Assembly (NCBI GenBank): GCA_030429445.1
Contig: JAUIFG010000004.1
Coordinates: 1-57,545 of the forward strand
Source of the DNA: a bacterium
GTDB taxonomy: Bacteria; Patescibacteriota; Saccharimonadia; Saccharimonadales; Saccharimonadaceae
Reading direction: 5' to 3'
Length of the DNA: 57,545 nucleotides
The notes under the pieces were generated by a model, which saw nothing but the letters and a program-made list of their open reading frames with translations, had not been told where the DNA came from and ran no database searches. The position numbers were made by a program, and so were the translations under genes. Position 1 is the first letter of the stretch. Every line of letters begins with the position of its first letter. This document shows, one piece after another, positions 5,806 to 8,295 of the stretch.

Positions 5806-6522
5806 TTAGGATTTAGGCTTGTTTTCATACTTTTCAATCGCCGCTTTTGCCGCAATCTGTTGAGCACTTTGCTTGCTACTGCCAGTACCCTTGCCCATCA
5901 ACTTGTCACCGACGTAGACACCAAGCGTAAATACCTTGTCATGATCAGGGCCGTCTTCGCCTAGCACCTTGTATTGTGGCGTTGATCCAGCAACGCGCTG
6001 TGATACTTCCTGTAGATGTGATTTTGGATCCCGCCAACTACCACTCTCGAGAATGCTGTCAAGCTTGCTGAGAATATGCTCGGTAATGAATTTTTCGGCA
6101 GCCTTGTAGCCTTTTTCTAGATAAATCGCACCAATAACTGCCTCAAAGGCGTTCGCAAGGATTTGCTGACGAGCACGAGGGCTTCCATTCTTTTCACCCC
6201 TACTCATTCGTATTAACGGCTCGTAACCGATTGCAGTACCAGCAGCACCGATGCTTTCTGTTCGCACCAGACTCGCTCGCCAACTGGTTAAAATACCCTC
6301 AGGTTCGTCAAAATGGGTATACAAATAGTCCGTGACAACGAGTTCTAGTACGGCATCACCTAGAAATTCCAACCGTTCGTTATGCTCTGATACACTCTTT
6401 TTATGCTCGTTTACATAGCTACGATGTGTCAATGCAGTAATTAAATAATCAATGTTCTCGAATTCGATACCCAACTTGTCGCGAGCAAAATCTTGATAAG
6501 GTGCCGTTTGCATACCACTCAT
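5806..6522 (-). CDS. rnc: Ribonuclease III
   Basis: RNase III cuts double-stranded RNA, including rRNA precursors. The 238-residue protein has the signature NERLEFLGDAVLE at 48-60 with the catalytic Asp at 56, the second metal ligand Glu127 in NAFEAVIGAIYLE, and a C-terminal dsRNA-binding domain from about 163 (DPKSHLQEVSQ) ending in the helix SAQQIAAKAAIEKY. Its ATG overlaps the Nudix stop by 4 nt (ATGA), indicating translational coupling. It is the last gene of rpmF-nusB-Nudix-rnc, whose leader contains a very long hairpin that RNase III itself could cut. Confidence 0.97.
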   Translation of the reverse strand: MSGMQTAPYQDFARDKLGIEFENIDYLITALTHRSYVNEHKKSVSEHNERLEFLGDAVLELVVTDYLYTHFDEPEGILTSWRASLVRTESIGAAGTAIGYEPLIRMSRGEKNGSPRARQQILANAFEAVIGAIYLEKGYKAAEKFITEHILSKLDSILESGSWRDPKSHLQEVSQRVAGSTPQYKVLGEDGPDHDKVFTLGVYVGDKLMGKGTGSSKQSAQQIAAKAAIEKYENKPKS

Positions 6523-7013
6523 AAATCCTCCTGACGAATTTTTTTCTTTGCGAGTAGCATCAACTTTCCGATGTCTTCATACTCGACCAACTCTAGCGCA
6601 TCGTGAAAATCATGCCACTTGATATCGTTCATAATGTCTTCTTTTTGGATTTTATCTGAATCATCACCCGCCTTTACCAGATAAATCTGTGTTGTCATCA
6701 AAACCAATTTGTCCATGCGGCGATATCGAAAATGAATTTTACCCAGCCAGCCCTGGAAATCTAAATCATGGATACCGGCTTCTTCACCAATTTCCCGTCG
6801 AGCGGTCTGCTGAGCTGTCTCGCCTTCCTCAATATGACCTTTAGGAATTGTCCAGCGATCCTTTAGATCCTGAATCAACAAGATTTCTATTTTTCCATCC
6901 TTTAGGCGTCGCCATACAATACCGCCCGCGGTTGCCTCGCGAACGATTTCCTGAATAGATGATTTGTTTCGATTGAAATACTTTTTGAACTTATTGAACT
7001 TTGGTGCCGGCAT
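6519..7013 (-). CDS. Nudix hydrolase
   Basis: A 164-residue Nudix-family pyrophosphohydrolase. The Nudix box fits the pattern GX5EX7REUXEEXGU exactly at residues 59-81, with the metal-binding REIGEE at 73-78. The segment before it ([13 protein letters not shown]) resembles Ap4A, RNA-cap or 8-oxo-dGTP hydrolases; the substrate cannot be told from sequence. The basic N-terminus ([13 protein letters not shown]) precedes the domain. The start lies 23 nt inside nusB with GAGGAA 7 nt upstream, and the stop overlaps the rnc start, so the three genes are coupled. Confidence 0.92.
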
Positions 7014-7461
7014 CTTTGGTTTCCTCGACTTCTTCTACAAGTGTCCGATACGCCGTGCCTAACACGCCGTTAATGAACTTACTTGAGTTGTCAGAACCAA
7101 ACGCTTTGGCGAGCTCTACCGCTTCGTTAATCGCAACCTTCGGAGGTACTTTATCAGCCAAGTGGAGTAATTCGTACAAGCCGATTCGTAATACATTACG
7201 ATCGATACGCGCGATTTGCTCCAATGGCCACTCTGGCGCAAGGGGTCGAATGCGATCATCTAATTCATCTTGATGTTTCAACACGCCATGCACGAGACCG
7301 GTGACAAAATCGGTATCTTCAATTTCTTGGTCATAACGACCAAGATTCCGACCGAGAATCTCGTCAACCGATACACTTTTATCATCGGCGCTTGTACGAA
7401 ATTCATATTCGTACAGCGTCTGTAGTGCAACGATCCTGCCCAAGTGACGATTTGATGCCAT
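6991..7461 (-). CDS. nusB: Transcription antitermination factor NusB
   Basis: NusB binds the boxA of rRNA operons with NusE (S10) and supports antitermination and rRNA processing. The 156-residue helical protein shows [17 protein letters not shown] at the start, [15 protein letters not shown] near 86-100 and [27 protein letters not shown] near 108-134. It follows rpmF by 53 nt and overlaps the Nudix gene. NusB and RNase III in one operon fits a shared role in rRNA making. Confidence 0.96.
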
Positions 7462-7514: not shown

Positions 7515-7664
7515 TTACTTTGCGAGTTTTTTGCCAGTTTCACGCTTTGTTGTCATCACCTTTACTGGTGATTTAGCGTTGACACGGCGAGCTAACTTGA
7601 GCACCAAATGGCTTCGTCGCAGGCCTGTCTTTCGTGGACTACTCTGTTTTTTTGGTTCTGACAT
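7515..7664 (-). CDS. rpmF: 50S ribosomal protein bL32, short form
   Basis: A 49-residue very basic protein, [20 protein letters not shown] and on to a Lys-rich end. The PKxxxSxxRxxxRRSH pattern is that of the bL32 N-terminus. Typical bL32 ends with a CxxC...CxxC zinc ribbon; here there are no cysteines and the tail is [19 protein letters not shown]. The start has AAGGAG 9 nt upstream. It begins the rpmF-nusB-Nudix-rnc transcript. The short size could also suggest another small ribosomal protein, but the N-terminal pattern favours bL32. Confidence 0.75.
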
Positions 7665-7695
7665 TGAAAAGTTCTCCTTCTGAGCTGTTTGACAC

Positions 7696-7835
7696 CCATC
7701 CTGTCGGCTAAAATTTCAAGTTCTGCCACTTACTATTTGTTTTTCGCTCCGCAAGGTATCATTCAGATACCTTTTGTCACGATAAAACAGATAGTAAATT
7801 CGGACAGCTGCTTGAAATTCGCTTTCGACAGATGG
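7696..7835 (-). promoter_or_regulatory. Long extended hairpin in the rpmF-nusB-rnc leader RNA
   Basis: The ~200-nt leader can fold into one long interrupted stem. From the base inward the pairings are: CCAT plus CTGTCG (7697-7706) with CGACAGATGG (7826-7835); AATTTCAAG (7712-7720) with CTTGAAATT (7811-7819); a 14-position stem (7730-7743 with 7784-7797) holding one C/A mismatch on the minus strand; and a perfect apical AAGGTATC / GATACCTT (7753-7772). Nothing here codes for protein. Double-stranded RNA of this length is the kind of substrate RNase III cuts, and rnc is in the same operon. Confidence 0.7.
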
Positions 7836-7873
7836 ATGTTAAATAGCTCTTGTTCTTATCCAAATTTAGTACG

Positions 7874-7902
7874 ATTATAGCACTTTTACGTACTTAGCTC
7901 AA
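7874..7902 (-). promoter_or_regulatory. Promoter of the rpmF-nusB-rnc operon
   Basis: On the minus strand TTGAGC (7897-7902), 17 nt, TATAAT (7874-7879). The -35 lies in a palindrome AGCTC-AA-GAGCT (7896-7907) shared with the divergent promoter, a possible regulator site. Confidence 0.75.
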
Positions 7903-7908
7903 GAGCTA

Positions 7909-7972
7909 TTGCTTTTTTATTACGTTAATGCTATAATAATAGTTGCTAGGTACTGCGGATCGTCCCAGTATC
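7909..7972 (+). promoter_or_regulatory. Promoter and 5' hairpin of the 7996 gene
   Basis: TTGCTT (7909-7914), 17 nt, TATAAT (7932-7937). A hairpin GGTACTG...CAGTATC (7949-7972) begins about 5 nt into the RNA. Confidence 0.7.
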
Positions 7973-7995: not shown

Positions 7996-8295
7996 ATGGA
8001 GGTGTATCTCTGGTTAGTGGCAGCGCTACTAACGATCGAGGTCATCATCGTCCCTACTCTTCACATCAAAGCGCGCATGGAAATGACAAAGAACAGAATG
8101 GTGATGGTCGGTATCGGCCTCATCGTTATCGCCGGCCTCATCGTGGTAGTATTCGGTTACGGTCAAGGGCGTCCGTACGATGTCGCACACTCGGACATCG
8201 TCTATGCCCTCGTCACAGTCGCCGTGTTCAACATGGTGATGCCGTACGTTGTGCTGAGCTGTGAGCTCGTCACAGATCCCGCGCTCAAGAAGTAG
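7996..8295 (+). CDS. Orphan three-helix membrane protein, unknown function
   Basis: A 99-residue protein with hydrophobic helices at about 4-21, 36-54 and 67-88. No family recognised. AAGGAG lies 7 nt before the ATG. It belongs to the plus-strand orphan series: promoter, leader hairpin, single gene, strong terminator. It lies between rpmF and leuS, both on the opposite strand. Confidence 0.78.
   Translation: MEVYLWLVAALLTIEVIIVPTLHIKARMEMTKNRMVMVGIGLIVIAGLIVVVFGYGQGRPYDVAHSDIVYALVTVAVFNMVMPYVVLSCELVTDPALKK

Follow-up and report, generated by a model that had tools for sequence, protein, structure and literature searches.

The rpmF-nusB-Nudix-rnc operon of this Saccharibacteria genome carries a hairpin of unusual length in its leader, which raises the question of whether the structure is a switch belonging to the operon or a sequence that arrived there from elsewhere. 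Escherichia coli rnc regulates itself through a structure in its 5' UTR (PMC5371410), and the initial annotation of this stretch had suggested the same logic here or else a feedback site for ribosomal protein bL32. The window analysed is a 57.5-kb contig (57,545 nt), one of 13 in a genome of 825,529 bases. Its operon lies on the minus strand and comprises four genes, of which the first encodes a short bL32-like protein and is followed by nusB, a Nudix gene and finally rnc.

Pfam searches bear out the earlier naming of NusB, the Nudix hydrolase and RNase III. The naming of the first gene as rpmF holds in part, as a short bL32-like protein is indeed encoded beside nusB, but its Ribosomal_L32p match is only sub-threshold. 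In this 49-residue product the match covers the N-terminal half, and three orthologues likewise stay below threshold, so that bL32, to judge by these sequences, may be shortened across the class. On the other side of the operon promoter, a divergent promoter-like site (TTGCTT-17-TATAAT, 7909-7937, plus strand) faces a 99-residue ORF at 7996-8295, whose product is membrane-protein-like with no Pfam match and whose homologue is absent from this position in most congeners.

On the minus strand the 168-nt hairpin folds into 67 pairs at -72.9 kcal/mol (z -11.2), a value reached by none of 200 shuffles (-34.2 +/- 3.5 kcal/mol), and the two strands of this copy fold about equally well (-72.9 and -74.2 kcal/mol). 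The long interrupted helix described before is thus confirmed by the fold, with both its 9-bp stem and its 8-bp apical stem. The interval assigned to it, 7696-7867, also folds well beyond chance (-58.3 kcal/mol on the minus strand, z -7.7, 0/200 shuffles as good), but it is shifted, missing the base of the stem and taking in about 18 unpaired nucleotides beside the predicted transcript start. A pattern search of the window's own genome places 19-bp terminal inverted repeats (GAGCTRTTTRACAYCCATC) at 7831-7849 and 7682-7700. The coordinates of these and the surrounding features are collected in Table 1.

Table 1. Features of the rpmF leader and operon in the window, with the evidence for each.
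Feature	Position	Strand	Evidence
Palindromic dispersed element (long leader hairpin), 168 bp	7682..7849	-	Fold; absent from congeners' leaders; homologous copies elsewhere
5' terminal inverted repeat, GAGCTATTTAACATCCATC	7831..7849	-	Pattern search of own genome
3' terminal inverted repeat, plus-strand reading GAGCTGTTTGACACCCATC	7682..7700	+	Pattern search of own genome
Apical core with conserved asymmetric internal loop (GTGACAAAA-GGTATC...GATACC-TTGCGGAGC)	7744..7782	-	Copy alignments, pair counts
rpmF operon promoter, TTGAGC-17-TATAAT	7874..7902	-	Consensus scan; same spacing and place in congeners
Predicted rpmF leader, about 203 nt	7665..7867	-	Start near 7867 inferred from -10 box
Shine-Dalgarno AGGAG of rpmF	7674..7678	-	Sequence; flank conserved in congeners
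rpmF-like gene (49 aa, bL32-like)	7515..7664	-	ORF; Ribosomal_L32p sub-threshold; conserved place beside nusB
nusB	6991..7461	-	Pfam NusB, E 1e-37
Nudix hydrolase	6519..7013	-	Pfam NUDIX, E 4e-16
rnc (RNase III)	5806..6522	-	Pfam Ribonucleas_3_3, E 8e-39, plus dsrm

The hairpin fills most of the predicted leader without touching the signals at either end. About 18 nt lie between the predicted transcript start and the hairpin, and the AGGAG follows 3 nt past the hairpin foot, outside the structure. Transcription from just upstream of the hairpin is plausible, because the TTGAGC-17-TATAAT promoter stands at the same place in congeners. An 11-nt inverted repeat (CAAGAGCTATT; 7843-7853 and 7900-7910) links the left end of the element with the rpmF -35 region, and its promoter half is found in congener G009 too.

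NusB searches, which identified Saccharibacteria as the relatives of the window genome, yielded nine congeners and 80 further Saccharibacteria loci for comparison. The order rpmF-nusB-Nudix-rnc is kept in all nine congeners and in nearly all other loci whose contigs are long enough. The congeners all have a TTG-like promoter with 17-nt spacing and TATAAT, and the distance from the -10 box to the start codon is 37-43 nt in them versus 209 nt here, an excess of about 168 nt, as long as the palindrome itself. When five congeners are aligned with this leader, the extra sequence forms one block, and this block is the palindrome. In the wider set the distance is mostly 24-50 nt, the longer values being mostly weak promoter calls in which the scan probably chose a site further upstream. 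A structure-model scan found no copy in the rpmF leaders of 73 other rpmF-nusB-rnc loci, and two weak matches fell elsewhere. The rpmF leader is a filled site here and an empty one in the congeners. Judged from these comparisons, the hairpin is a lineage-specific insertion and not part of the ancestral rpmF leader; because the congeners are about 80-91% identical in NusB, the comparison does not capture the event cleanly at the level of strains.

The family to which the hairpin belongs escapes searches by sequence similarity alone, and structure models are needed to find it. Plain blastn returned no second copy in the same genome and none in the family, plasmids or phages, and the exact terminal-repeat pattern had no match in viral contigs. 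Allowing two mismatches across 245 genomes gave scattered matches in numbers similar to a reversed control, and these were discarded. A covariance model covering both strands of the palindrome recovered three full-length copies at other loci in two congeners, with E-values of 1e-20 to 1e-21 that are rough, as are those below, the calibration having been shortened. A four-copy model found about 20 more copies and had matches in 19 of the 295 genomes of the family, and a third model reached at least 60 of 393 class genomes and at least 40 of 153 genera; these counts are lower bounds, since the class-wide search scored seven candidates per genome. The third model also detected a second, weaker copy in the window's own genome (C7:23490-23650, E 5e-7). 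The covariance model had no match in 50 kb of E. coli, and Rfam gave none above the gathering score at the window hairpin or at copies in 12 other loci. A search of open-licence papers for such repeats in Saccharibacteria or CPR returned no relevant titles, and the element family is previously unlabelled.

The copies are mostly full length, at about 150-168 nt, and mostly intergenic (14 of 108 overlap an ORF in a crude ORF call). Their neighbours include genes that we take to be dnaA/dnaN, ruvC/ruvA, adk/map, rplL, der, dnaG, a glutaredoxin gene and a divIC-like gene. The copy in the glutaredoxin leader of G007, 13 nt before the start codon, repeats the arrangement in the window in the opposite orientation. 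Relative to neighbouring genes the copies are oriented nearly at random (25 sense and 34 antisense), which rules out a consistent orientation toward them, and own promoters next to the element are not enriched on either strand. In congeners G008 and G007 alike, tRNA-Met and the divIC-like gene are separated by a copy (L166, L174, L172); the same gap in the window genome holds about 80 nt of extra sequence that may be an element remnant.

With the leaders of relatives and the wider family in hand, the proposed functions can be weighed. If the hairpin were a selected RNase III site through which, as in E. coli, the enzyme destabilises the mRNA of its own operon, one would expect the site to be conserved. 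Several features would suit this reading, namely rnc as the last gene of the operon, the long duplex in the leader and the precedent of E. coli rnc, whose own 5' UTR structure is cut (PMC5371410). However, no conserved leader structure is seen on the rnc operon of the nine congeners or of other Saccharibacteria with the same operon, the same element stands beside many other genes, and one relative (G364) has a copy not in the leader but inside the operon, between nusB and the Nudix gene. A dedicated autoregulatory site for rnc, as first proposed, is therefore unsupported and we consider it unlikely; the hairpin may have been co-opted after insertion, in this one lineage. The proposed feedback loop, in which the rpmF product would bind the hairpin and repress its own operon, draws on the bL32-like first gene and the hairpin in its leader. 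It fares worse still and is very improbable, as the hairpin is not conserved in other rpmF leaders and the element lies beside many genes unrelated to bL32. Relatives with the same operon and mostly a similar promoter lack the leader hairpin, and it is for this reason that we do not regard it as a conserved switch of either kind; the check for conserved pairing in relatives' leaders, which the initial annotation had itself named, came out against its reading.

The palindrome might instead have formed in situ by template switching, unrelated to other hairpins. The single copy found by blastn in its own genome would agree with such an origin, but the structure models find homologues of the same length and with the same apical core in many genomes, and copies in G364 and G357 share 69-70% identity with the window copy along its whole length; we give this origin almost no weight. 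Two further candidates were set aside. One arm (7813-7842, plus strand) matches, over 22-30 nt at 83-95% identity (best E 7e-4 per genome, 245 genomes), sequences of other Saccharibacteria genera that look like tmRNA 5' ends, at places where ARAGORN called no tmRNA. The tmRNAs of the window's own genus match over only about 12 nt, and the likeness is probably due to chance. An integron attC site would bring R boxes of the form RYYYAAC/GTTRRRY at its ends, of which the window copy has one of the two, and inspection by eye did not find them common to most other copies. As a separate observation, a complete tmRNA gene scoring above the Rfam cut-off was not found in G000 (97% complete) but is present in five of ten genus genomes; the missing gene probably falls in a contig gap.

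Evidence of movement comes from G364 in particular. Six 20-kb stretches of this genome (120 kb), several of them picked because matches were already known there, contain about 37 matches with E below 0.001. Some pairs of copies are 97-99% identical and have different flanks. At three places (L295, L297, L299) we find composites in which one subfamily is nested in the apical loop of another, again with differing outer flanks, and the nested copies belong to the subfamily of the window copy, to which they are 69-70% identical. Unfilled loops read GGTAGCC-TTA-GCTACAT and filled ones GGTAGCC-TTA-[168]-TTT-GCTACAT, or close variants, an increase of 3 nt. Copy flanks are enriched in TA and TNA, a duplication is not clear for most copies, and the flanks of the window copy contain no clear target duplication. 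The element has multiplied recently in at least one relative. G364 also has four copies within 4 kb (L237; G364:C4:4600-10900), among them the one between nusB and the Nudix gene and another after rnc in the same operon, which may be coincidence in so copy-rich a genome.

Across the copies it is the pairing, and above all the apex, that is preserved. In an alignment of 29 rows, 89.6% of pair cells are standard and 65 of the 67 pairs have double changes; when the partners are displaced by 1-3 columns, pairing falls to 36-42% of cells. An alignment of 149 rows gives 86.8% standard pairs with double changes at 67/67 pairs; in both covariance alignments the rows were fitted to the structure, and 60 rows of the larger one repeat, on the opposite strand, copies that it already includes. 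A MAFFT alignment of the first four copies, made without structure, has double changes at 25 of 67 pairs. Conservation is highest at the apex, where an asymmetric internal loop flanks a GUA/UAC stem and two of the stem pairs are kept in 147-148 of the 149 rows. The terminal sequences differ between copies, with ends that are GRRCYCATY-like, whereas a textbook MITE has conserved ends.

The pairing is also biased by strand. Copies were oriented by a short apical motif only, and their arms were aligned with symmetric scoring; the window copy is among 60 copies whose tip does not fit the motif and was left out of this count. On the forward strand defined by the tip, the arms have 299 mismatches of the G.T type versus 95 of the A.C type, with 44 copies having more G.T and 2 more A.C, and 46 of 48 copies fold better on this strand. 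Gene conversion between the arms was dismissed as the sole cause of the covariation, as it does not predict an excess of G.T over A.C on one strand. Because correction between arms would not produce this asymmetry, we infer that one strand is under constraint to fold, either in RNA or in single-stranded DNA. Given the near-random gene orientation and the lack of an evident own promoter, the source of this constraint seems to lie in the element and not in host mRNAs.

These observations bear on how the element moves. It could be strand-specific and mobilised through single-stranded DNA or RNA, by a REPIN/RAYT-like or other single-strand enzyme, and not be a MITE moved by a double-strand DDE transposase. 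The three-to-one excess of G.T over A.C in 44 of 46 copies, the near-random orientation and the conservation of the apex rather than the ends all point this way. On the other hand, the 3-nt difference at nested sites and the TNA-enriched flanks would agree with a double-strand transposase that duplicates 3 bp, and the two conserved REP units that define REPINs are not seen. We regard single-strand mobilisation as a real possibility, short of even odds. It is a variant of the reading that we prefer, in which the window hairpin represents a dispersed palindromic element, MITE-like and about 160-168 bp long, that inserted between the rpmF promoter and ribosome-binding site (probability roughly 0.87). 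The element is short, non-coding and present in multiple dispersed copies, with 19-bp terminal inverted repeats in the window copy and pairing that extends to the ends across copies. It conforms to the general definition of miniature non-autonomous palindromic elements in all but two respects, a settled target duplication and a known transposase.

Similar elements are known from other bacteria. The Correia or NEMIS elements of Neisseria (104-157 bp) are likewise intergenic, form a long RNA hairpin if co-transcribed and sometimes lie between a promoter and its genes, as at mtrCDE (PMC2649163; PMC10969869). They are co-transcribed with genes and cut by RNase III (PMC2649163; PMC10969869), whereas the window element is only a predicted substrate. 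The Correia ends are conserved and insertion is mostly at TA, in contrast to the variable ends and conserved apex of the Saccharibacteria copies, and identity with Correia was rejected because the GRRCYCATY-like ends differ from the Correia end variants AACAAAAA and AAATTTAAA and from the core ends (PMC2649163). YPAL/RU-2 of Yersinia is an intergenic palindrome of about 168 bp, mobile by comparison of empty and filled sites, and its termini follow no TA rule (PMC2229807). However, it belongs to a different lineage and has duplications of 3-26 bp, and the likeness is one of description. ERIC/RU-1, an intergenic imperfect palindrome transcribed with its neighbours, affects mRNA stability in Yersinia (PMC2229807, PMC10969869), but it is shorter (127 bp) and RNase E, not RNase III, is implicated. 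REPINs are also dispersed extragenic elements that form hairpins in single-stranded DNA or mRNA, with a proposed single-strand mobilisation (PMC3116915). The arms of the present element are not conserved as REP units in the alignments, unlike the two short conserved units of REPINs. The likeness to E. coli rncO lies in a leader hairpin on an rnc-containing operon with RNase III as the likely nuclease (PMC5371410); rncO is a dedicated regulatory site, whereas a dispersed element inserted in one lineage accounts for the window hairpin, and rnc takes fourth place in the operon here.

For the operon, the insertion of the roughly 168-bp element between the rpmF promoter and ribosome-binding site would have lengthened the leader in this lineage and left both signals untouched. 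The inserted copy would then be transcribed into the leader, where its duplex, which resembles RNase III substrates, may be cut by the product of the operon's last gene. Such cleavage is plausible by analogy with co-transcribed Correia elements, which are cut, and would shorten the transcript at its 5' end while sparing the ribosome-binding site. If the operon came to regulate itself in this way, that would be a side effect of the insertion and not a conserved design.

The genomes of Saccharibacteria are very small, yet the family occurs in at least 40 of 153 sampled genera and amounts to dozens of copies, and probably more, in one genome. A hairpin of about 165 nt is kept by compensatory change while its sequence drifts, under a strand-specific constraint that is unusual for miniature transposable elements and offers a handle on how such elements move. 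Only tentatively, and with some doubt, can one picture a class-wide family of hairpins that fold on one strand, carry an apical recognition core, spread through single-stranded DNA or RNA and, on landing in leaders or between genes, put host mRNAs under the control of RNase III. Copies in the leaders and between the genes of core operons are candidate post-transcriptional modifiers in hosts with few known regulators, and the present case shows that a hairpin in the leader of an rnc operon does not have to be a switch for rnc.
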